This document shows, piece by piece, positions 9,165-23,291 of a stretch of 64,000 nucleotides of DNA (positions are counted from its first letter, which is position 1; each line of letters starts with the position of its first letter). Origin of the DNA: Archangium primigenium (GTDB taxonomy: Bacteria > Myxococcota > Myxococcia > Myxococcales > Myxococcaceae); the NCBI RefSeq assembly GCF_016904885.1, contig NZ_JADWYI010000001.1, forward strand, positions 8,117,224 to 8,181,223. Reading direction: 5' to 3'. The position numbers were made by a program, and so were the translations under genes. The notes beneath the pieces were generated by a model. That model made no database searches and was not told the origin of the DNA. It saw only the letters and a list, made by a program, of their open reading frames with translations.

Positions 9165-11470
9165 CGCAGATCCTCCAGCGCCGGCGGGCGCACCGTGGCC
9201 GGAGGGGCCGTCTCACCGCCCAGGGTGAAGAAGAAGGTGGTGCCCTCACCCGGCGTGGACTCCAGCCACAAGCGGCCGTTGTGCCGCTCGATGAGGCGCT
9301 TGACGATGGTGAGGCCGGTGCCGGTGCCCCCACCGTATTTGTCGCGCCCGTGCAGGCGCTTGAAGATGCGGAAGATGGCGTCGTGGTACTCGGGCTTGAT
9401 GCCGATGCCGTTGTCGCGCACGTAGTAGACGGTGCCCAGCTCCGGCTCCTGCCTGGAGCCGATCTCCACCCAACGCTTGTCCTTGTCGTTGTACTTGATG
9501 GCGTTGGTGATGAGGTTGGTGAAGGCCTCCATCATCCGCACCCGGTCGCAGCGCGCCGGAGGCAGCGGCGCGGGGATGCGCACCTCGGCCTGGGCCTCCT
9601 CGAGGCGCGGCTTGAGCAGCTCCAGCACCGAGGCGAGCACCTCGTTGAGGTCCGTCTCGCGCAGCGACAGCTCCATGCGGCCCACCTGCGCGTAGTGCAG
9701 GAGCGAGTTGATGAGGCTCTCCATGCGCTGGGTGAGCCGCACCACCGTGTCCATGCGCGTGCGGCTGGTGGGCTGGAGCGCCGCGGCGTCCTCGCGCAGC
9801 ACCAGGCTCGCGTAGTTGTGGATGCCGCGCAGCGGCTCCTTGAGGTCATGACTCGCGGCGTAGGCGAACGAGTCCAGCTCCACGTTGCTGCGCTCCAGCT
9901 CGGTGTTGAGCTTGAGCAGCTCCTCGCTGCGCTCCAGCACGATGTCGATGATGCTGCGGCGCAGGTCCTCGGCGCCCTCCAGCTCGTAGTCCTCCCAGGG
10001 CAGGGACTTGCCGCGCACCGTCTCCTGCCAGAGCGCGAAGGACTTGCGCGGATGCAGCCGGGGCTGATCGTCCTGGACGTCCACGGGCTTGTTCGGATTG
10101 CCGCCCCACTCCACCGTCTGCACCACCTCGGGACGGAACCACAGCACGTAGTTGTGGCGGCCCCGGGACATGGAGGCGGCGATGAGGCCCGCGGCCACGT
10201 CCTTGAACTCCTCGGACTCGGGGTACTCCTTGAGCAGGCAGTTGGTGGCGAAGATGTCCTGGGACACCGGCCGGCTCGCCAGCCAGCGGAACAGGCCCTG
10301 CAACTGCTCGTCCGAGGGCGCCTTGCCCAGCACGGTGGTGCGGCCGTTGAAGTAGACAGCGGCGCCCGCGGCCCCCGTGAGCTCAAGCAGCTCCGGCGGC
10401 GACTGGCAGAGCTGCGCGGCGAAGTCGAGGCCGCGCGTCATGCGCTCGAGCAGCCGGCCCTGGATGGACTTGGCGCGGATGCGCTGATCGTAGTTCTCGT
10501 AGCCCTCCTTGGTGGGGAGGAAGGAGGACATGAACTGGCCCACGAACTCGCACGCCGTGCGCACCTCGTAGGGCAGGTAGCGCGAGCCGGAGATGTGCGT
10601 GCAGGAGATGAGCCCCCAGAGCTTGCCCTCCTTGAGCAGGGAGATGCTCATGGAGCTGCCGGCGCCCATGTTGCGCAGGTACTCCATGTGCACCGGGGAC
10701 ACGCTGCGCAGCACGCAGAAGGACATGTCCAGGGGCCCGCCCTGGGCCTCCTCGGGCAGCGCCACCATGCGCGCGGGCACGTAGTCCACCGCCGGGATGA
10801 GGCGCAGCAGGTTGAGCAGGTACAGCTCGCGCGCCTGCCGGGGAATGTCCGAGGCGGGGAAGTGCAGCCCCAGGTAGGGGTCCGCGTCCTCCATGCGATC
10901 CTCGGCGAGCACCTGACCGTTCCAGTCGGCGTCGAAGCGGTAGATGATGACGCGATCGAAGCCCGTGAGCCGGCGCACCTCGCTCGCGGCCTCCATGCAC
11001 AGCGCATGCAGGTCCTTCGCGTCGCGCAGGCGCGACATGGCGCCCCGCGCCTGGTGGTAGAAGCCGAAGAACGGCAGATCCTTCTGCTCGGTCGAGGGCT
11101 CCAGCTCCAGGAAGAGGCGGCCCTGGTGGCGGTGCGCGATGCCGTCGAACTGCCGCGACCCACCGCTGCCCTGCTGGATGGAGAGCTTGAGGGGGTTGTT
11201 GTCCTCCAGGCGATCCGACAGGAGGCTCTCGCGGGTGCTCGCCACCTGCTCTGGCGGCAGCAGCTTCTCCAGGGACTGGCCCAGCAAGTCCTTCACGGCG
11301 ACACCGAGCAGGTCCTGCGTGTTCTCACTCGCCTGACAGATCGTCAGCGACGGCTCGCGCAGGACCAGCAGGACGCCGTGGGGCTGGATGGCCCCCGGGA
11401 TATGGATGGGCTCCCGGTCGCAGTTGGTGAGATCCGCCGCGGGATGCGTTCCAACTTTGTCCGTGCCCAT
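9161..11470 (-). CDS. bphP: Bacteriophytochrome histidine kinase
   Basis: A 769-residue red/far-red photoreceptor kinase. The N-terminal PAS domain contains NCDREPIHIPGAIQPHG, in which Cys17 is the expected biliverdin attachment site. The GAF domain has FPASDIPRQARELY with the canonical P-A-S-D-I-P, and SPVHMEYLRNMG with the conserved chromophore-contacting His. The PHY domain shows VLWFRPEVVQTVEWGG. HisKA has His541 (AASHDLKEPLRG) and the HATPase has NLITNAIKYN and GTGTGLTIVKRL. The site that reads C-H-H in most bacteriophytochromes (LWGLIxCHH) is C-T-H here, with Thr291. I chose ATG 11470 over an in-frame TTG at 11482 because GGAG sits 6 bases before it. It heads a three-gene operon with overlapping genes. 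Confidence 0.93.
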   Translation of the reverse strand: MGTDKVGTHPAADLTNCDREPIHIPGAIQPHGVLLVLREPSLTICQASENTQDLLGVAVKDLLGQSLEKLLPPEQVASTRESLLSDRLEDNNPLKLSIQQGSGGSRQFDGIAHRHQGRLFLELEPSTEQKDLPFFGFYHQARGAMSRLRDAKDLHALCMEAASEVRRLTGFDRVIIYRFDADWNGQVLAEDRMEDADPYLGLHFPASDIPRQARELYLLNLLRLIPAVDYVPARMVALPEEAQGGPLDMSFCVLRSVSPVHMEYLRNMGAGSSMSISLLKEGKLWGLISCTHISGSRYLPYEVRTACEFVGQFMSSFLPTKEGYENYDQRIRAKSIQGRLLERMTRGLDFAAQLCQSPPELLELTGAAGAAVYFNGRTTVLGKAPSDEQLQGLFRWLASRPVSQDIFATNCLLKEYPESEEFKDVAAGLIAASMSRGRHNYVLWFRPEVVQTVEWGGNPNKPVDVQDDQPRLHPRKSFALWQETVRGKSLPWEDYELEGAEDLRRSIIDIVLERSEELLKLNTELERSNVELDSFAYAASHDLKEPLRGIHNYASLVLREDAAALQPTSRTRMDTVVRLTQRMESLINSLLHYAQVGRMELSLRETDLNEVLASVLELLKPRLEEAQAEVRIPAPLPPARCDRVRMMEAFTNLITNAIKYNDKDKRWVEIGSRQEPELGTVYYVRDNGIGIKPEYHDAIFRIFKRLHGRDKYGGGTGTGLTIVKRLIERHNGRLWLESTPGEGTTFFFTLGGETAPPATVRPPALEDLR

Positions 11471-14638: not shown

Positions 14639-14918
14639 CCTGGCTACCTTCTGGTTCCTGCTCGGGGGAGCGGACCTGACACGTTCCTGGACGGCGCGAC
14701 CGCCACCCAAACCGCTGGACTTGTAGGGGGGCGGACGCGGGACATGCAAGCGGGGGCCGCAGGGAGCACCCAGGCCGCCTCCGGCTTCCGACTCGTCGCT
14801 TTGTGTTTCATACAACGGCCCGTGCCTCGGATTGCTTCACTCCAGCGGACAGGGCGTGAAGGCGCCGCCTGCTCGCCTTCCTGTCAGGAATGCCCGGAGC
14901 GCGCGTCCCTCGGGCACC

Positions 14919-16700
14919 ATGAACACCGACGCGAACACCTCCTCTCAAGACACGCGCCTGCCCGAGGCGCAGCGTGGCCCCGCGGAGCGACTCCTGGAGC
15001 TGGTGCTCGGAGGCTCGGCGCACCTGTGGCACAACCGTCCGGGACTGGACGTTCAGGGGACCTGGCACCCGGCGCAGGGCGCCAGGCCCGGCCTCGTGCG
15101 CCTCGGCACCCCCGTGGCGCCGGGCCTGTTCGTGCCCGCGGCGGTGAAGCTCTACGGTCAACTGCTGGACATCTACCGGCTCAACACGGAGCTGCTCGCG
15201 CACTTCGCGTCCTACGCGCTGACCCAGACGGACTGGCGCGACCTCAAGGTGGCCACCTGCGCGTTGATGCTCGTGCAGGCGCACGCGGGCCAGCCCGTGC
15301 GCGAGCCGGACGGCCGCGTCGCCTTCCATGACGACGACCTGCGCGCCATTGGCGAGGCGATGCTCCTGCACTACGAGCGCAAGTCCACGCGCATGCTCAC
15401 GCCCAAGGCGGTGCTGCGGGTGGCCGAGCTGCTGGAGGTGCCGGAGATCGCCCGGCTCAATCGCGCGGCGGGTTTCGCGGACCCCGCGGGGCACAAGGCG
15501 CCGCTGGGCCGCTGGAAGGCGGTGGCCACGCGCTGGCTGCGCATGCGCGAGCAGAACCCCGCCCTGCTCCACGGCCTGGTGAAGGCGGGCTACAAGCACA
15601 CGCTGCGCGCCATCGCGCGCAAAGCGGGCTACAAGCCGCTGACGCAGGCGTTCTTCGAGGTGCTCGGCTGGAAGCAGAAGCAGGCGGCCACGGGCCACCG
15701 CACGGTGGGGCTCGGGGAGCTGCGGCTGCTCAAGCGCGAGCGCTTCGAGGGGCTGAGCGAGGCGGAGATCTGCGAGCGCATCGAGCACGAGCGCCTGTCG
15801 TTCAAGGAGGTCGTGGGCCGGTTGCCCCCGGACGTGGGGCTCACCCCGGCCATCCTGGCGGCGCTGTTGCCGTCGCTGTCCTCCAAGGACTTGCTGGTGA
15901 TGACGCCCACGCTCGAGGAGCTGGGGCTCATGGCGGACCCGGACATCCGCGCGCGCTGGGACGAGGCGGTGCGGGCGGCGAGCGACCAGCGGGCGCTGCA
16001 CATCGTGAAGAACGTCCGGGGCCAGGAGCTCCAGGCGAAGCTGGAGGAGGCGAGCGACAACGCGGCGCGGGCGGCGGTGAAGGAGGCGACGGCGGAGGCG
16101 GACGTGCGGGTGATGTTCCTCATCGACAAGTCCGGCTCCATGCAGGGCGCCATCGAGCAGTCCAAGGAAGCGCTCACGCGCATCCTCGCGGGCTTCCCGG
16201 TGGACAAGCTGCACGTGGCCTCGTTCGACACGGTGGGCACGGTGCTCAAGCCCAAGGCGGCCAGCCGTCTGGGCGTGCAGCACATGCTGAGCCACATCCA
16301 GGCGGGGGGCGGCACGGTGCATGGCGCGGCGGTGCGCGCCCTGCACCAGACGGGCGTGCGGGTGCCGGCGGACGCGAAGCTCATCGTCATCGTGGTGGGT
16401 GACGAGGAGGGCGAGGCGGGCGAGCAGCTCGCGCGGACCTTCCGCGACTGCGGCTACACGGTGAGTGCCCTGGCGCTCATCGTGAGCATGGCGTACGGCC
16501 GGGGCCGCAGCGTGCGCGGGTGCGCGTCGGCCCTGGGCGTGCCGTACAGCGAGGTGACGGTGGACCAGTTCTCGGACCCCTACCAGGTGACCCGGGTGCT
16601 GCGGACGCTGATGGAGGCCCCCGTGGCCCCGGGACAGACCGCCACCGTGGCCGGCTGGGTCGAGCGGGTCATGCGCACGCCCCTGTTGAAGGTGGCGTGA
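14919..16700 (+). CDS. TROVE-like/vWA-domain protein (Ro60-like), candidate Ubl-system partner
   Basis: A 593-residue protein. The C-terminal third is a von Willebrand A domain with an intact metal site: D403-K-S405-G-S407 (MFLIDKSGSMQGAI), AGGGTVHGAAVRAL and VIVVGDEEGE. The N-terminal 390 residues are helical. They contain stretches that match the style of TROVE modules (ALLHGLVKAGYKHTLRAIAR; ILAALLPSLSSKDLL followed by EELGLM), as in the RNA-binding Ro60/Rsr proteins, which also end in a vWA domain. I consider TROVE likely but not proven. ATG 14919 is the first ATG; an in-frame TTG at 14832 adds implausible sequence. The next gene overlaps or touches its stop and a JAMM peptidase follows, so these three genes form one operon. 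Possible roles are RNA quality control or assembly of a protein-modification complex. Confidence 0.7.
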   Translation: MNTDANTSSQDTRLPEAQRGPAERLLELVLGGSAHLWHNRPGLDVQGTWHPAQGARPGLVRLGTPVAPGLFVPAAVKLYGQLLDIYRLNTELLAHFASYALTQTDWRDLKVATCALMLVQAHAGQPVREPDGRVAFHDDDLRAIGEAMLLHYERKSTRMLTPKAVLRVAELLEVPEIARLNRAAGFADPAGHKAPLGRWKAVATRWLRMREQNPALLHGLVKAGYKHTLRAIARKAGYKPLTQAFFEVLGWKQKQAATGHRTVGLGELRLLKRERFEGLSEAEICERIEHERLSFKEVVGRLPPDVGLTPAILAALLPSLSSKDLLVMTPTLEELGLMADPDIRARWDEAVRAASDQRALHIVKNVRGQELQAKLEEASDNAARAAVKEATAEADVRVMFLIDKSGSMQGAIEQSKEALTRILAGFPVDKLHVASFDTVGTVLKPKAASRLGVQHMLSHIQAGGGTVHGAAVRALHQTGVRVPADAKLIVIVVGDEEGEAGEQLARTFRDCGYTVSALALIVSMAYGRGRSVRGCASALGVPYSEVTVDQFSDPYQVTRVLRTLMEAPVAPGQTATVAGWVERVMRTPLLKVA

Positions 16701-16711
16701 CGGGAGGCGTC

Positions 16712-17629
16712 GTGGACTACCGGAAGTTCCTCGGCCGGGTGGAGACGTGGGTGCTGCCCTACTTCGGCGGCGCCCACGTCGACCTGCCCACGCGGCGCCT
16801 CCGGGTGTCCACGCCGCCGCCCTCGCCGGGGTGGTGGTGCTTCGAGATTCAAGGGCGCACCGCCACCGCGCGGGCCCCCGCGCAGCCGGAGGGGCTGGAG
16901 GGCCTGCCGCTCGTGCGGGGCCACTTCTGGTCGGACCGGCTCGTACACACCCGCGCCCAGGCCGAGCCGGTGCGCCTGCTGCCCGAGGACGCGCCGCCGC
17001 GCTTCTCGCCCGTGAGGGCCCGGCGCTGGCATGACGGCACGCTCGTGTACGAGGCCCTGGACTTCGAGGACGAGGCGGAGGGCGTCGCCCGCGAGCGCTG
17101 GGAGGCGCACGGCACGCTCGCGGACGTGCGCGCCGTGCCCGCCTCCCTGCGGGCCGCCTTCGGCTACGCACGGGTGGAGACCGTGGCCCGGACGCTCGGC
17201 ATCCGTTTCGTGCCCGCCGAGGTGCGCGGTCAGGTCCTCGCCGTGGCGGAGACCGGCGACGCCGCGGCCGAGGCCCGGCTCCGGGCGCTCGCGCGGGAGC
17301 GGAGCCGGGGCGGCGCGTCCCCGTGGCGGGTGAGCGCTCCTTCGGACCGTCCGACCGAGTCCCGGCCCGAGCCTCGGGTGCGCCATGCGCTGGAGTCGGC
17401 GGGGGCGCGGCTGCTGGACCTGCGCGCGCGCGGCTCGGGTGTGTGGGAGGTGACGTTCGGCTTCATGGGCGAGCGCTTCCAGAGCCTCGTGGAGGGGGAC
17501 ACGCTGGGCGTGGTGGACGCGGGCATCTGCCTGGCGGGAGAGGACCGGCGCGTGACCCTGGACAGCCTGCCCTCGGTCATCCGCGAGGCCATCGAGGAGG
17601 ACGTGCTGGTCATCACCCGGCACGCCTGA
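16712..17629 (+). CDS. Unknown protein between vWA and JAMM genes
   Basis: A 305-residue protein that I do not recognise. The start could be GTG 16712, preceded by GGGAGG at 4 bases, or GTG 16697, which overlaps the vWA gene stop as GTGA. The protein is soluble. The N-terminal 120 residues are beta-rich with many aromatic residues, the middle is helical and Ala/Arg-rich, and residues about 195-230 look like a linker. The last 85 residues form a compact unit: a helix, two or three strands (VWEVTFGFMGERFQSLVEGD), then DAGICLAGEDRRVTLDSLP and a final helix. Cys273 in G-I-C-L followed by a helix recalls the active-site region of E2 ubiquitin-conjugating folds, but the unit is too short for a full E2, so this is only a suggestion. 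It is 3 bases from the JAMM gene. Confidence 0.55.
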   Translation: MDYRKFLGRVETWVLPYFGGAHVDLPTRRLRVSTPPPSPGWWCFEIQGRTATARAPAQPEGLEGLPLVRGHFWSDRLVHTRAQAEPVRLLPEDAPPRFSPVRARRWHDGTLVYEALDFEDEAEGVARERWEAHGTLADVRAVPASLRAAFGYARVETVARTLGIRFVPAEVRGQVLAVAETGDAAAEARLRALARERSRGGASPWRVSAPSDRPTESRPEPRVRHALESAGARLLDLRARGSGVWEVTFGFMGERFQSLVEGDTLGVVDAGICLAGEDRRVTLDSLPSVIREAIEEDVLVITRHA

Positions 17630-17632
17630 GCC

Positions 17633-17968
17633 ATGACCCCCCACGAGATCTTCCTGCTCATCGGCCGGCGGGGCGAGGTGTTGTGGAGCGACGCCTCCGA
17701 CAGCCCCGTGTTCCTGCCGGACTCCCGTGAGCGCTGGGAGGCCCTCTGGCGCCTGCGCGCGGACGTGGAGGAGATCGCCCACACCCATCCGCTCGGCCCC
17801 CTGGCGTTCAGCGCCGAGGACGAGACGACGATGGAGGCGATCCTCCTGGCGCTCGGGCGGCCCGTGCGCTTCTGCGTGGTGGCGCCGGACGGCGTGCTCC
17901 GGCGCGAGCACGGACGGGACATCCGCCTCACGGAAGAGCCCGCCTGGGTGGCGGCGCTGCGCGCCTAG
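17633..17968 (+). CDS. JAB/MPN+ (JAMM) metallopeptidase, deubiquitinase-like
   Basis: A 111-residue protein with the complete zinc motif of JAMM peptidases: His50-x-His52-x7-Ser60-x2-Asp63 (HTHPLGPLAFSAED). A Glu upstream (Glu15 or Glu5) could complete the catalytic set, and a following strand reads RFCVVAPDGVLRR. Prokaryotic JAB proteins of this size cleave after the C-terminal Gly of ubiquitin-like proteins or remove Cys from sulfur-carrier proteins such as CysO. The gene follows the vWA gene and an unknown gene with almost no spacing. A beta-grasp-like protein and an E1-like enzyme lie 4.3 kb downstream on the same strand. Its stop codon shares the palindrome ctag with the stop of the convergent glucosidase gene. 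Confidence 0.82.
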   Translation: MTPHEIFLLIGRRGEVLWSDASDSPVFLPDSRERWEALWRLRADVEEIAHTHPLGPLAFSAEDETTMEAILLALGRPVRFCVVAPDGVLRREHGRDIRLTEEPAWVAALRA

Positions 17969-20367
17969 AAGCGGACCTCCAGCCGCGTCCAGTCCGCCGC
18001 GACGTCCACCAGCAGCACCCCATCGACGAAGCGGTGCTCCCGCCCGCCGCTCAGCTCCCGCGGCTCGGGCAGGCCGTACAGGCACAGCGTCTCCTTCTCG
18101 CGCGACACGGGCAGGGCGCCCTCCGTGCTCCGCTCCAGGACGAAGCGGTCCGCCGTCTTGTCGCCGCGCAGCCGCGTGATGCGGGAGGCGCCGTAGCCCT
18201 CGCCCGCGTCCTCGTACAACTGGCCCTCCACCTGGGGGCCCACGTGGATGTGCCAGGTCAGGTGCGTCCAGTTGGCCGAGGTGGTGTGGAGCGCCGGCTC
18301 GGTGAGGGCGAGCACCCCGCCCTCGCGCAGCCACATGGGCACCGTGCCCAGGGGCGTCTCGGCGAGCACGTGCCGCGGGCCCTCGACGGGCGCTCCCGTC
18401 TGGCCGAGGTCGAAGAACGGCAGCCACCGGCCCTCGGGCAGGTACACGTGCCGACGCGAGCGGCCCTGGCGCACCACCGGCGCCACGAGCAGGTCCCGCC
18501 CGAAGAAGAACGCGTCGTCCATGCGCAGCGCCTCGCGGTCACCCGGCGCGTACATGACGAGCGGGCGCAGCGCGGGCAGGCCCTCCTGGGAGGACTCCCA
18601 CATGAGCGAGTAGAGCGTGGGCAAGAGCCGGTAGCGGCGCTCCAGCCACTCGCGGGCGAGTCCCAGACAGGCCTCCCCGAAGCGCCACGGCTCCTGGTAG
18701 GGCGTGCCCTTGGCGGAGTGGTTGCGCATGAGCGGGTAGAAGGTCCCCAGCTGCATCCAGCGCACGAACAGCTCTCCGCTCGCGCGGCCCATGAAGCCCG
18801 GAATGTCCGCGCCGGTGAAGGACACGCCGGACAGGCCCAGGCCCAGCATCATCGGAATGGACAGCTCCAGGTGCGACCAGTAGCTGGAGTTGTCGCCCGT
18901 CCACACGGCCGAGTAGCGCTGGATGCCGGCGAAGCCCGCGCGCGTCAGCAGGAAGGGCCGCTTCTCGGGCGCGAGTCGGCGCAGGCCCTCGAAGGCCGCG
19001 CGCGCCATGCCGAGCGCGTACACGTTGTGCACCTCCAGGTGACGCTTGTCCCCGTGCCGCGCGTCGTGCGGCAGCGTGGGCCCCTCCACCTTGTCCTTGT
19101 CCAGCGCCGGCGCGGAGTTGATGTGGAAGGTCTCGTGGGCGTTGACGAGCCGGAAGCACGCGGGCTCGTTCATGTCGTTCCAGAAGCCGGCGATGCCCGC
19201 CTCCACGAAGGGCCGGTGCAGGCCGCCCCACCACGTGCGCACGCTCTCGCGCGAAAAGTCCGGGAACACCGCGGGCTTGGGCCACACCTCCCCCACCAGC
19301 ACGCTGCCCCGGTCGTTGCGCACCAGGTGGTCGCCCGCGACCGCCTCCTCGTAGACGCGGTAGCCCGCCTCCTGCTTCACGCCCGGGTCGATGATGGGGA
19401 CGAGCTTCACGCCCAGCTGGGCGGCCTCGCTCACCAGGCCCGCCGGGTCCGGATAGCGCGCCTTGTCCCACGTCCAGACCTTGTAGCCCTCCATGTAGTC
19501 GATATCGAGGTACACGCAGTCCAGCGGCAGGCCGCGCGAGCGGTAGCCGTGGATGACGGCGCGGATCTCCTCCGCGTTCTCGTAGCCCCAGCGCGACTGC
19601 TGCGCGCCCAGGCTCCAGAGCGGCGGCAGCGCCTGGCGTCCGGTGAGCGCGGTGTAGCGGCGCACGACGTCCTCGGGACGCGGGCCCACGAAGAGGTAGA
19701 CGTCCAGCTCGGGGCCCGTGGACTCCCAGCGCACCAGCGAGGGCTCCTCGGACGCGACGTCCACCTCCATGCGCCACGACTCGTCGACGAACAGGCCCCA
19801 GGCCACGCCCTCGCGCAGGCCGATACTGACGGGAATGGACTGGTAGAGCGGATCCGTGTCCGGGTGGTGCGGCACCACGTCCGTGTTCCAGAAGGTGAAG
19901 CGCATGCCGCGCTTGTCGAGCGCGCCCACCTTCTCGCCAAAGCCCAGCCACGCCTCGTCCGCGGGCGAGTGCAGCGCGAACCGGGAGCGGTAGCGCGTCA
20001 CCGGGTAGTCCGGCATCGCCTCGCCCGAGAAGCCCTCGCAGCGCGACAGCTCGCGCCCGGAGGCATCCCGCAGGCACCACGTGCCCTGGTCCAGCCGCAC
20101 CTCCACGGACAGCTCCGCGGTGCCCACCACCACCACGTTCGACCCGGGCTCGTGGCCGAAGGTCAACGGGCGCTGACCCTCCTCCACCACCGCGAAGGAG
20201 TGCTTGGCGGGCAGCTGCCGGGTCCCGTGCGCGCGAAAGGAATGCACGAAGGTGGGCAGGTGGCGCAGGCGCAGCACGCCGGGCAGGGGGCTGCGGACTT
20301 CCAGCGCGGAGCGCGCCCCCCAGAAAGTGACACGGTTCGGTTCGATGGACAGGTCGTCGAAGCGCAT
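17965..20367 (-). CDS. GH31 family alpha-glucosidase-like glycoside hydrolase
   Basis: An 800-residue protein with the standard GH31 layout: an N-terminal beta-sandwich, a TIM barrel and C-terminal beta domains. The nucleophile Asp lies in the family signature GFWNDMNEP, and further barrel motifs are VYLDIDYMEGYKVWTWD, GVSFTGADIPGFMG with the acid/base region, and FVRWMQLGTFYPLMRNHS. GH31 enzymes of this type remove alpha-linked glucose (or xylose) from oligosaccharides. There is no signal peptide, so it is likely cytosolic and may work on glycogen- or trehalose-derived sugars. ATG 20367 is used; an in-frame GTG at 20388 would add seven residues. It lies 77 bases after the DUF2231 gene on the same strand and interrupts the putative Ubl gene set. 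Confidence 0.92.
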   Translation of the reverse strand: MRFDDLSIEPNRVTFWGARSALEVRSPLPGVLRLRHLPTFVHSFRAHGTRQLPAKHSFAVVEEGQRPLTFGHEPGSNVVVVGTAELSVEVRLDQGTWCLRDASGRELSRCEGFSGEAMPDYPVTRYRSRFALHSPADEAWLGFGEKVGALDKRGMRFTFWNTDVVPHHPDTDPLYQSIPVSIGLREGVAWGLFVDESWRMEVDVASEEPSLVRWESTGPELDVYLFVGPRPEDVVRRYTALTGRQALPPLWSLGAQQSRWGYENAEEIRAVIHGYRSRGLPLDCVYLDIDYMEGYKVWTWDKARYPDPAGLVSEAAQLGVKLVPIIDPGVKQEAGYRVYEEAVAGDHLVRNDRGSVLVGEVWPKPAVFPDFSRESVRTWWGGLHRPFVEAGIAGFWNDMNEPACFRLVNAHETFHINSAPALDKDKVEGPTLPHDARHGDKRHLEVHNVYALGMARAAFEGLRRLAPEKRPFLLTRAGFAGIQRYSAVWTGDNSSYWSHLELSIPMMLGLGLSGVSFTGADIPGFMGRASGELFVRWMQLGTFYPLMRNHSAKGTPYQEPWRFGEACLGLAREWLERRYRLLPTLYSLMWESSQEGLPALRPLVMYAPGDREALRMDDAFFFGRDLLVAPVVRQGRSRRHVYLPEGRWLPFFDLGQTGAPVEGPRHVLAETPLGTVPMWLREGGVLALTEPALHTTSANWTHLTWHIHVGPQVEGQLYEDAGEGYGASRITRLRGDKTADRFVLERSTEGALPVSREKETLCLYGLPEPRELSGGREHRFVDGVLLVDVAADWTRLEVRF

Positions 20368-20444
20368 AGGGCCGCGGAGCCTAAGCACCGCGACCCGTTC
20401 CGAGACAATCCTTCCGTTGTCCGCGTCGTTATCCGTCCGGAGTG

Positions 20445-21107
20445 CTACATCGGACGCGGTTCGAACCCGAACGGCGCCGGATCGGCGGGCACCCGGGGCT
20501 CGACCGCCTTCTCGATCGAGGTGAAGCCGAAGGCCCGGGGCTCGATGCGCTCACGGCCCGAGAAGACCTGGCGCGCGCGACCCACCAACCAGCGCAGACC
20601 CCGCACCGCGTCCCGAGCGATGCGCCGGGGCGCCTCCCGCGACATCAGGGGCGGGCTGCGCTGCTCGATCTCCACCCGGCCCATGGTCAGCCCGTTGACG
20701 CCCACGCCCTCGGAGTACACCAGCTCTCCACCGAGCCACGCGCTGTAGCCCACGAGCGCGAGCGAGCCCAGGCCCATCATCCCCGAGGCCCATGAGGCAC
20801 GGTGGCCCGTGCGCCAGGCGGCGACGCCGATCGCGCCCAGGACGATGACGGCATTGGCGAAGCCGTGCAGGAAGATCATGTCGCGCGTCTTCGGCGTGTC
20901 GGCCTTCACCTCCTGCGAGGCGGCCAGCCCGGCGATCCCCGCCACCACGCCGCCCGCGGCGGTGCTCCACCACAGGATGCGGGCCGTCTTGTCCAGGGTC
21001 CGTCCCCCGGAGAACGCCGCCGCCACGTCGATGGCCACCGCCGAGGGCAGCAGCGTCAAGGGGGCGTGGATCAACATCGGATGAAGTTCCTGAACCCGCA
21101 TCTTCAT
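20445..21107 (-). CDS. DUF2231-type membrane protein
   Basis: A 220-residue integral membrane protein with about four transmembrane helices in the first 150 residues: HPMLIHAPLTLLPSAVAID, WSTAAGGVVAGIAGLAASQ, FLHGFANAVIVLGAIGVAAW and GMMGLGSLALVGYSAWLGGE. The H-P-M-L-I-H-A-P start and the W-L-G-G-E-L-V-Y end of the last helix are typical for DUF2231. The cytosolic tail of about 70 residues is basic and ends Pro-rich. The start at ATG 21107 is supported by GAGGAGG at 7 bases; longer frames upstream are unlikely. The molecular role of the family is not known to me; it is often near heme or redox genes, which is not the case here. Confidence 0.8.
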   Translation of the reverse strand: MKMRVQELHPMLIHAPLTLLPSAVAIDVAAAFSGGRTLDKTARILWWSTAAGGVVAGIAGLAASQEVKADTPKTRDMIFLHGFANAVIVLGAIGVAAWRTGHRASWASGMMGLGSLALVGYSAWLGGELVYSEGVGVNGLTMGRVEIEQRSPPLMSREAPRRIARDAVRGLRWLVGRARQVFSGRERIEPRAFGFTSIEKAVEPRVPADPAPFGFEPRPM

Positions 21108-21271
21108 GGACAATCCTCCTCGTCCCGAGAAGCTTGGGGCGGAGGCGTCCCCGGACAACCCGCCTCACGGGCAACCCACGGGCCGAGGCCCCCGTCCGGG
21201 CAGCGAGGGAGTGAGCCCGGCGCCCATGGGACGGCCCTTGCCAGCCGCTCGGGTCGTGACATGGTCCGCGC

Positions 21272-22204
21272 ATGCGACTCGCCCGTCTGCTCACCCTGTC
21301 GGCGCTGTCCCTCGCGACACCCGCCCTCGCCGCGCCTCCCGCCAAGCCCAAGCCACCCGCCATGACCGCTCCCGCCCCGACGACCCCCTCCTCCCTGGAA
21401 GCCGAGACCCGCGCCTGGCACCAGAAGCGTCTGGCCAACCTCACCTCCGAGGAGGGCTGGCTGTCCCTGGTGGGCCTGTTCTGGTTGCAGGAAGGCGACA
21501 ACCGTCTGGGCTCGGGCGAGGACAACGACTTCGTCTTCCCCGCCGGCACGCCCGCGCGCATCGGCACGCTGACGCGCCAGGGCACCCAGGTGACGTTCAC
21601 GCCCGCCGCCGGCGTCTCCCTCACGAAGGGCGGCCAGCCCTTCACGGGCGGCGCGGTGGGCACCGGCGAGGGCCCCGCGGACACGCTCGGGCTCGGCGCG
21701 CTGCGCTTCTACCTCATCCCCCGGGGCGACAAGCTGGGCCTGCGGGTGAAGAACCCCGAGGCCCCGGCGCGCAAGCAGTTCCATGGCATCCCCACGTGGC
21801 CGGTCGACGCCGCCTGGCGCATCGAGGGCCGCTTCGAGCCCTCCCCCACCCCGAAGAAGCTGGCGGTGCCCACGGTGCTCGGCACGGTGGAGGACATGGA
21901 CTCGCCGGGCACGCTCGTGTTCCAGGTCCAGGGACAGGAGTACCGGTTGGACCCCGTGCTGGAGTCGCCCACCGGGCCCTTCTTCGTCATCTTCGGGGAC
22001 CAGACCAACCGCGATGCCTCCTACGGGGCGGGCCGCTTCCTCTACGTGGACCCGCCGAAGGATGGCCGCGTGGTCCTCGACTTCAACCGCGCCTACAACC
22101 CGCCCTGCGCCTTCTCGCCCTACGCGACGTGCCCGCTGCCGCCCGCGCAGAACCGGCTGAAGCTGCGCGTGGAGGCGGGCGAGAAGCGCTACGGCGACCA
22201 CTGA
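21272..22204 (+). CDS. Secreted DUF1684 family protein
   Basis: A 310-residue protein with a cleavable signal peptide (MRLARLLTLSALSLATPALA-AP) and a Pro/Ala linker. The DUF1684 signature is very clear: GWLSLVGLFWLQEGDNRLGS near residue 65, and the C-terminal block FGDQTNRDASYGAGRFLYVD, DFNRAYNPPCAFSPYATCPL and NRLKLRVEAGEKRY. The function of the family is unknown to me; the invariant N-P-P-C-A-F and C-P-L-P motifs suggest a structural disulfide or a metal-free binding pocket. It is exported, so its position 48 bases before the Ubl-like gene need not mean common function. The first ATG is used. Confidence 0.88.
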   Translation: MRLARLLTLSALSLATPALAAPPAKPKPPAMTAPAPTTPSSLEAETRAWHQKRLANLTSEEGWLSLVGLFWLQEGDNRLGSGEDNDFVFPAGTPARIGTLTRQGTQVTFTPAAGVSLTKGGQPFTGGAVGTGEGPADTLGLGALRFYLIPRGDKLGLRVKNPEAPARKQFHGIPTWPVDAAWRIEGRFEPSPTPKKLAVPTVLGTVEDMDSPGTLVFQVQGQEYRLDPVLESPTGPFFVIFGDQTNRDASYGAGRFLYVDPPKDGRVVLDFNRAYNPPCAFSPYATCPLPPAQNRLKLRVEAGEKRYGDH

Positions 22205-22252
22205 GCCCAGGCGGTGGTGTCAGGGCGCCCGTCCCCGGACCGTCTCCGGGGC

Positions 22253-22468
22253 ATGGCGACCTTGAACATCACCTACAACGGCCTGTCCTCGGATGTGCCG
22301 CTCGAGTCGGATGGCCCGCTGGCGGACGCGGACGTGCGGCGCATCGCGGCGGAGCTGCTCGGGCTCGCGCGCGCGGACACCTTCCAGCACTACGTGGTGG
22401 ACCGCTTCCCCGGTCCCCGGGGCGAGGAGCGCATCTACCTGCGCCCCAAGGTCCCCTTCGGCGCCTGA
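22253..22468 (+). CDS. Small beta-grasp (ubiquitin-like) candidate protein
   Basis: A 71-residue protein directly upstream (12-base gap) of an E1-like gene. The pattern fits a beta-grasp fold: strand LNITYNG, strand DVPLESD, a helix (DADVRRIAAELLGLA), strand QHYVVDRF, a Gly-rich turn (PGPRGEE) and strand RIYLRPKVPFGA. Length and order agree with ubiquitin-like modifiers and with the multi-ubiquitin type domains of bacteria. The C-terminus is F-G-A instead of Gly-Gly. If it is conjugated, the JAMM peptidase at 17.6 kb could trim Ala71 and expose Gly70. The Ubl identity rests on pattern, size and neighbourhood and is not proven; it could also be a regulatory subunit of the E1-like enzyme. Confidence 0.6.
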   Translation: MATLNITYNGLSSDVPLESDGPLADADVRRIAAELLGLARADTFQHYVVDRFPGPRGEERIYLRPKVPFGA

Positions 22469-22480
22469 GGAGCCCACCCC

Positions 22481-23059
22481 ATGCGCATCCTCTTCTGTGG
22501 CGTGGGCGCGGTGGGCTCCACGGCGGCGGTGCTGTGCCGCAACCTGGAGGCCACGCTCGTCTTCATCGACTTCGACCGCGTCGAGTCGCGCAACCTCCTG
22601 GCCCAGGCCTACGTGAAGCCCTCGGTGGGCCGCAACAAGGCCGAGGCGCTCAAGCTCCAGCTGCTCAACCTGTACGGCGTGAAGGCCGAGGCCGTGGGCG
22701 TGCGGCTCACGCGCGACAACGTGGCGGCGCTCTGCCAGGGCGCGGACCTGCTCGTGGACGGCTTCGACAACCAGGCGAGCCGCCACGTGCTCAGCGCGTT
22801 CGCGCGGGAGAAAGGCCTGCCCCTGGTGCACGGCGCGCTCGCGGCGGACGGCACCTTCGGCCTGGTGCGCTGGGAGGAGCGCTTCGTGGCGGACGCCGAG
22901 GACACGGCGGGTCAGGCCACCTGCGAGGGCGGCGAGCACCTGCCGCTCATCGGCCAGCTCGCGGCCACGCTCGCCCGGGCGATCCAGGACTTCGTGAAGC
23001 ACGGCGCGCGCCGCGATGCCCTGGTGGGACTCGCGGCGGTGACGCCCACGACGGCGTGA
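22481..23059 (+). CDS. ThiF/E1-like adenylyltransferase, short form
   Basis: A 192-residue Rossmann protein of the ThiF/MoeB/E1 superfamily. Visible motifs are the nucleotide loop G7-V-G9-A-V-G12, Asp30/Asp32 in VFIDFDRVESRN, Asn38, Lys53 after VGRNKAEAL, and Asp93/Asp96 (LLVDGFDNQASRHVLSAFA). The C-terminal ATCEGGEHLPLIGQLAATLA corresponds to the Cys-x3-G-x-x-x-x-x-I-G helix of MoeB, so Cys148 is a candidate catalytic cysteine. The Arg of the usual N-L-x-R-Q motif is Ala41, which may reduce or alter adenylation. The Cys4 zinc site of MoeB and a rhodanese tail are absent. Expected chemistry is adenylation of a C-terminal Gly, and the 71-residue protein just upstream is the obvious partner. 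Confidence 0.8.
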   Translation: MRILFCGVGAVGSTAAVLCRNLEATLVFIDFDRVESRNLLAQAYVKPSVGRNKAEALKLQLLNLYGVKAEAVGVRLTRDNVAALCQGADLLVDGFDNQASRHVLSAFAREKGLPLVHGALAADGTFGLVRWEERFVADAEDTAGQATCEGGEHLPLIGQLAATLARAIQDFVKHGARRDALVGLAAVTPTTA

Positions 23060-23060
23060 C

Positions 23061-23291
23061 TCAGCGCGCCGCTTCCTTGGAGCCCACCACGGTCATGTTC
23101 ATGCCGATCTGCACCGACACGGGCTTGCCATCCACGGTGACGGTCGTCTTGCCGTTGATGTACCAGCCGAAGGAACCCGTCGAGAACGACTTCACCTCGG
23201 CGAGCATCTCCTGGCCGTTGATGCTGACCTTCAGCGGCTCGGCCTTCTCGAGGAACTGCGCAAGGGACACGGGGCAAGGGGACTTGGCCAT
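23061..23291 (-). CDS. Small conserved-looking protein of unknown function
   Basis: A 76-residue protein that ends one base after the stop of the convergent E1-like gene. It starts MAKSPCPVSLAQFLEKAEPL and then alternates short strands: KVSINGQEM, FSTGSFGWYINGKTTVTVDG and VSVQIGMNMTVVGSKE. This suggests a small all-beta fold. There is no signal peptide, membrane segment or catalytic motif. I do not know a function. The regular codon use and the well-formed beta pattern argue for a real gene. Its position between the E1-like gene and the graspetide genes may be accidental. Confidence 0.6.
   Translation of the reverse strand: MAKSPCPVSLAQFLEKAEPLKVSINGQEMLAEVKSFSTGSFGWYINGKTTVTVDGKPVSVQIGMNMTVVGSKEAAR

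Follow-up and report, generated by a model that had tools for sequence, protein, structure and literature searches.

In the type 6d prokaryotic operons, a ubiquitin-like protein (Ubl) is encoded together with a JAB peptidase, an E1, an E2-like protein and a helical protein (Iyer 2006, PMC1779556). In the Bil system, the deubiquitinase BilC processes BilA and frees its C-terminal Gly (PMC11354881). Bacterial Ro60 proteins and their Y RNAs are found in rsr-yrlBA-rtcBA operons, and YrlA has a tRNA-like domain (PMC7790460). Here we describe five genes in a 64,000-nucleotide stretch of the Archangium primigenium genome (contig NZ_JADWYI010000001.1, positions 8,117,224 to 8,181,223 of the forward strand; hereafter the window) that probably form a Ubl-conjugation system whose target or partner is a Ro60-like ribonucleoprotein. 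No paper was found that describes this set or joins Ubl conjugation with Ro60/Y RNA, in a search that mostly did not reach the subscription literature, so an earlier mention is possible. The five genes lie in two groups about 4.3 kb apart:

14919 to 16700, forward strand: vWA protein, likely remotely Ro60-like, 593 residues, with a TROVE-like helical N-terminus (about 1 to 390) and a vWA domain (about 396 to 515)
16712 to 17629, forward strand: protein of no convincing family (hereafter the Cys273 protein), 305 residues, GTG start, with an invariant G-x-C (Gly271, Cys273) toward the C-terminus; candidate E2-like enzyme
17633 to 17968, forward strand: JAMM/Prok-JAB metallopeptidase, 111 residues; proposed Ubl tail-trimming and/or deconjugating enzyme
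22253 to 22468, forward strand: Ubl candidate, 71 residues, C-terminus RPKVPFG-A, with Gly70 as the proposed mature end
22481 to 23059, forward strand: short E1/ThiF adenylating enzyme, 192 residues, with candidate catalytic Cys148 and without the N-L-x-R-Q Arg

Translations bear out all five open reading frames of the original prediction, which was made from the sequence of the window alone. Type 6d operons resemble this set in having a separate small Ubl that ends in a conserved Gly, a JAB, an E1 and a Cys-bearing, perhaps E2-like protein. The window set differs from them in giving no Prok-E2 or Prok_Ub match and in adding the TROVE/vWA protein, and the JAMM of its family, at 111 to 142 residues, leaves no room for the JAB-N domain described in PMC1779556. 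In the FtsH ternary vWA-MoxR systems (PMC7159879), too, a vWA protein has a genetic link to Ubl, E1 and JAB genes, and the bacteria have multicellular stages; unlike in those systems, MoxR, FtsH, RING and EAD are not prominent among the recurrent neighbours here, as judged by crude clustering of open reading frames with no profile search. BilABCD and the Cap2/Cap3 proteins of the cyclic oligonucleotide-based antiphage signalling system (CBASS) share the logic of E1, JAMM and Ubl, whereas the window set has a short single-domain E1, a single small Ubl and no E2 fused to the E1; Bil itself has a two-domain Ubl and a larger E1. With Ro60/Rsr and its Y RNA or YrlA, the set shares a helical TROVE-like N-terminus followed by a vWA domain and, in many bacterial loci, an adjoining Y-RNA-like motif, but its constant partners are a Ubl, an E1, a JAMM and the Cys273 protein, and the window family has no Pfam TROVE match.

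Co-occurrence and gene order

The original prediction had treated the two groups as one functional system that is split in this lineage, and had named their co-occurrence in related genomes as a check. They do co-occur: of 58 family genomes, 37 contain the gene for the Cys273 protein, and exactly these 37 also contain those for the E1 and the Ubl (hand-copied lists of the first two genes were compared by script, the Ubl list by eye). Across the phylum, the genes for the Cys273 and vWA proteins are each present in 76 of 193 genomes, the two lists naming the same genomes when matched by eye, and a search with the Ubl profile gives 78 genomes, with partial and weak matches in the two additional ones. 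Several relatives keep both halves though on different contigs. In genome G014 the E1 gene directly follows the JAMM gene with the Ubl elsewhere, and both G014 and G052 have another copy of the vWA gene, 3 to 5 kb ahead of the Ubl. Presence within genera is patchy (one of five genomes in genus g15).

Gene order is conserved wherever the set is complete. All five genes are present in 26 of 59 bacterial loci, one of which (L201) has a truncated JAMM, and all 26 have the order vWA, Cys273 protein, JAMM, Ubl, E1. The complete set is present in Myxococcus xanthus strain AM003 (L177). Of the remaining loci, some are cut off by the end of the contig, and for others no second half turned up in the retrieved stretch. 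In 11 bacterial loci the five genes lie within 5.5 kb in that same order; one of these (L143) belongs to a different family within the order, and the other ten have titles outside the Myxococcaceae or naming no family. Given the shared genomes and the compact operons, the five genes are one system. Since the compact arrangement is found in loci of other families, the split in the window lineage is probably secondary. The contig scan for further loci used two short peptide patterns and cannot show absence from other phyla; its loci carry Myxococcota, deltaproteobacterial or unplaced metagenome-assembled genome titles, plus one Comamonas record. That record (L205, titled Comamonas sp. KCTC 72670) holds a Myxococcus-type locus and is likely mislabelled.

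The set is also found in phages. Its vWA gene is present in the phage record Rctr197k (197 kb) and in 21 IMG/VR contigs, whose viral origin is the collections' own assignment; nine of the 21 exceed 200 kb and the longest reaches 618 kb. Among 22 phage loci (with Rctr197k and L149 added and L260 left out because it duplicates L259), 18 have all five genes, every one of them collinear with the bacterial order. The other four are L149, which has no JAMM, and three loci with genes off the stretch or not found in it. L149, on the same contig as L144, is binned in a deltaproteobacterial metagenome-assembled genome and is probably phage; in a quick tree it falls among the phages, and the bacterial vWA proteins form one clade (Shimodaira-Hasegawa-like approximate likelihood ratio support, SH-aLRT, 100). 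At least one tRNA gene lies near 16 of the 20 phage-type loci scanned, a count without background control, and huge phages are tRNA-rich (PMC7162821). Some jumbo phages have TROVE proteins (PMC7824862), and the terms JAB, ThiF and E2-like are absent from its text. Beyond phages, two cyanobacterial plasmids (L249 and L250) hold relatives of the vWA protein, the Cys273 protein and the E1; L250 has four tRNAs upstream.

The clustering of open reading frames, applied to 13 bacterial and 22 phage loci, was crude, picking up the known members in just 7 to 12 of the 13 bacterial loci, so a sixth partner is possible. It also gave a family that reads as kinase-like in six bacterial loci, and further families, some HNH-like, in up to nine of the 22 phage loci.

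Proposed Ubl maturation and conjugation enzymes

The original prediction had taken the terminal Ala of the Ubl as a sign of unusual chemistry. Comparison with the family shows that this Ala is the first residue of a variable tail. The sequence (P/A)FG is kept in 47 of 48 Ubls (in the alignment, F69 is present in all 50 rows and G70 in all 49) and is followed by a variable tail of 0 to about 60 residues, with a bare PFG end in 6 of 48 loci. The Ubl has 71 residues in the window and 71 to 82 in its family.

Presence of the tail is associated with the JAMM. Where the JAMM is intact, 41 loci have a tailed Ubl and three (L186, L257 and L261) do not, whereas at the three loci without an intact JAMM all three Ubls end at PFG; no tail is seen without an intact JAMM (Fisher p 0.0012, uncorrected for kinship, with phage L272 left out of the 2 x 2 table). 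For two of those three loci the genome gives no JAMM match up to an E-value of 0.01, and for the third it gives only a fragment. The absence from L149, probably a phage contig in an incomplete assembly, is weaker evidence. As the loci without an intact JAMM end at Gly, the JAMM probably trims the tail back to Gly, which is the simplest reading of these sequences, and the mature end of the Ubl is then probably Gly, not Ala. With Gly as the probable mature end, the reason given for unusual chemistry falls away.

The JAMM motif H-x-H-x7-S-x2-D seen in the original prediction is real: H50, H52, S60 and D63 are unchanged across all 73 rows, which include the phages and the window. All 22 members of one JAMM alignment match Pfam Prok-JAB, and the window protein alone scores 19.8 bits (curated cut-off 25). 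The window Ubl has no match in Pfam, NCBIfam or PHROG, and among 28 relatives scanned only single members gave weak matches (best E 0.083). A beta-grasp fold is thus a candidate assignment, suggested by pattern and context.

The E1 matches Pfam ThiF at 71.8 bits (cut-off 28.1), with no rhodanese match in Pfam. Its conserved residues are G7, G9, G12, D30, K53, D93, D96 and C148; the Cys that the original prediction had picked out occurs in 48 of 50 rows and falls in a gap in the remaining two. The absence of the N-L-x-R-Q Arg, also noted in that prediction, is family-wide: all 50 rows have S, A or T at that position. A phmmer alignment places Cys148 on the MoeB Cys in 'TCvEAGVMAPLIG' (1jw9), with modest local confidence. 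Type 6d operons are linked to PRTRC, and the PRTRC ThiF profile scores the window E1 at 26.7 bits, far below its cut-off of 144.75. PADLOC gives only generic E1-E2 matches, all of them to the E1.

The Cys273 protein has no Pfam match. All 78 aligned rows have G271 and C273, and D269 is likewise invariant, in 44 rows. Its G-I-C-L, followed by a helix predicted from reading the sequence, resembles an E2 active site, and we hypothesize that the protein is an E2-like conjugating enzyme acting via Cys273. Weak matches to Sharpin PH and to PAS were discarded as chance.

Two neighbouring genes recur in relatives. A DUF1684 gene (21272 to 22204) precedes the Ubl in the window and in nine related loci. 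Beside the E1 lies a small convergent gene (23061 to 23291, reverse strand) with 87-97% identity in five relatives and no Pfam match above cut-off.

The vWA protein and structured RNA upstream

The vWA domain matches Pfam VWA_2 at 34.8 bits (cut-off 27). The original prediction had called the N-terminus TROVE-like; profile-profile comparison agrees, but no Pfam TROVE match does. The comparison profile consisted of eight Myxococcota TROVE proteins, of which five pass the Pfam cut-off and three are closely related to those five. When the query was made up of bacterial rows and L149, hhalign gave a TROVE probability of 13% at a score of 32.1 (maximum 21.5 in 20 shuffles). After phage rows were added, the probability was 49 to 91%, above all shuffles, and after one cyanobacterial row it was 88.7%, or 95.4% with the roles swapped, at a score of 52.9 (maximum 20.4 in 40 shuffles; 16.1 and 14.8 for unrelated profiles). 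The cyanobacterial relative bridges both families, with 99.9% to the window vWA family and 89.9% to TROVE, and its vWA part gives a weak Ro60-vWA match (E 0.019). Judged by sequence comparison, the vWA protein is likely remotely Ro60-like.

The tRNA-like genes that precede the vWA gene by no more than 1.2 kb in L192, L194, L195 and L196, four in all, served to build a covariance model; chance estimates for such upstream genes assumed 80 tRNA genes in 9 Mb. With an E-value limit of 0.5 the model found another 22 matches, which are mostly weak taken singly; 20 of them are on the strand of the vWA gene and at most 800 nt upstream of it, in 12 loci. This count leaves out the four model-building sequences as well as L156, L250 and L283, which carry tRNA arrays or plain tRNAs; L156 has 12 tRNA genes around a compact bacterial operon. 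The RNA has an outer stem that in several loci encloses a tRNA-like module with the T arm before the D arm. This fold is full in L160 and L168 and partial in L206 and L161, with simpler hairpins in L150 and L152.

A motif pattern was written from 14 upstream regions. It occurs at 80 places in 60 bacterial loci, and 48 of these places, spread over 35 loci, precede the vWA gene by at most 1 kb. Of the 35 loci, 23 are outside the 14 regions used, although for L192, L195 and L196 the tRNA-like core was known beforehand. A plain letter shuffle of 30 loci gave 9 in 530 kb. Up to five copies stand in tandem; within 1 kb ahead of the vWA gene L195 has five, L143 four and L190 three, with differing inner arms. 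Against Rfam YrlA (RF02553), one L160 copy matched over the full length at 44.1 bits (E 1.4e-6) and one L195 copy at 26.9 bits; L152 gave no YrlA match, and six other loci gave none at the Rfam gathering score. The RNA link raised in the original prediction gains some support from the YrlA-like, often tRNA-mimicking motif upstream in 35 of the 60 bacterial loci, but not at the window's own locus. A short hairpin, GCCCGG..CTCGGGC, stands just before the vWA start (14892 to 14915), and one might guess that it is a remnant of the RNA upstream in the Archangium relatives L150, L152 and L155. Elsewhere in the window, 10681 to 10753 gives a sub-threshold Rfam SorX match (E 0.018).

Possible roles of the system

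A Ubl-conjugation system that acts on a Ro60-like ribonucleoprotein, or together with it, could run as follows. The Ubl would be made with the short variable tail seen after (P/A)FG, and the JAMM peptidase would cut it back to Gly, as the coevolution of tail and JAMM suggests. By homology, the small E1 would adenylate this Gly and probably load the Ubl onto Cys148. The Cys273 protein might then act as an E2 or in its place, and the Ubl may be joined to the TROVE/vWA protein or to clients that it presents, with the JAMM perhaps also removing it. The TROVE/vWA protein is predicted to bind structured RNA, which in many bacterial relatives would be the Y-RNA-like, often tRNA-mimicking transcript from upstream. 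The system could thereby control a Ro60/Y RNA particle or mark proteins on captured RNA, such as damaged or foreign tRNA.

Several results weigh against this scheme. Pfam TROVE matches none of 22 vWA-family members at E up to 1, nor the phage and cyanobacterial relatives, and the TROVE probability was weak, at 13%, before phage rows were added. The RNA motif is missing upstream in 25 of 60 bacterial loci (window included), in 23 of 23 phage loci and in 3 of 3 cyanobacterial stretches; 32 of its 80 places are elsewhere in the bacterial loci, and no copy reaches the YrlA gathering score of 69 bits. When the Cys273 protein was compared with ten Prok-E2_B proteins, hhalign set C273 on their Cys at a score of 18.0, which is exceeded among 50 shuffles (22.7). 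Similarly, the Ubl scored no better than shuffles against ThiS/MoaD, and the window Ubl holds a single Lys. The L272 Ubl ends in RFA, three loci with an intact JAMM have no Ubl tail, and no Ubl or JAMM was detected with the cyanobacterial relatives.

Another reading is a sulfur-carrier pathway, in which the E1 and Ubl would make a thiocarboxylate for tRNA thiolation or another metabolite and the JAMM would only trim the tail. JAMM/sulfur-carrier pairs in which the JAMM trims the carrier tail exist, the window E1 is closest to MoeB/ThiF/Uba4-type enzymes, and the apparently trimmed Ubl and the tRNA genes near many phage copies would both fit. However, the E1 has no rhodanese match, and the crude clustering, which involved no profile search, recognised no recurrent extra gene as a sulfur enzyme. 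Such a pathway would also give no reason for having the TROVE/vWA protein as a constant partner or for the invariant Cys in the Cys273 protein, and it appears rather unlikely.

Also unlikely, and a little more so, is an antiphage or conflict system of the CBASS or Bil type, in which the Ubl would tag phage or toxin proteins and phages would use the set for competition or counter-defence. Known bacterial Ubl systems work in defence (PMC10097602, PMC12660748), and patchiness within genera and phage-held copies are what such a role might leave. On the other hand, the bacterial vWA sequences are one clade, PADLOC gives nothing beyond generic E1-E2 matches, and no effector was recognised in the set by the crude clustering. 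That the two halves, an operon of vWA, Cys273 protein and JAMM and a pair of Ubl and E1, are unrelated neighbours is highly improbable, for although they are separated in the window and several relatives have them on separate contigs, the 37 shared genomes, the 11 compact operons and the same order in phages count strongly against it.

Our more specific proposal, which is tentative, is that the Ubl is a modifier dedicated to a Ro60/Y RNA particle that captures tRNA-like or damaged RNA, and that the E1, a new E2-like enzyme acting via Cys273 and the JAMM would reversibly attach it to the particle or its cargo. Such a tRNA-surveillance device would be common to Myxococcota and some huge phages, and its coupling to Ro60/Y RNA would be the new feature among prokaryotic Ubl systems. 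The set offers a candidate for an unrecognised E2 and a phage counterpart that is often near tRNA genes. With small genes, cultured hosts in Myxococcus and Archangium, and a Ubl maturation site predicted from evolution, it would join prokaryotic ubiquitin-like conjugation with the biology of Ro60 and Y RNA.

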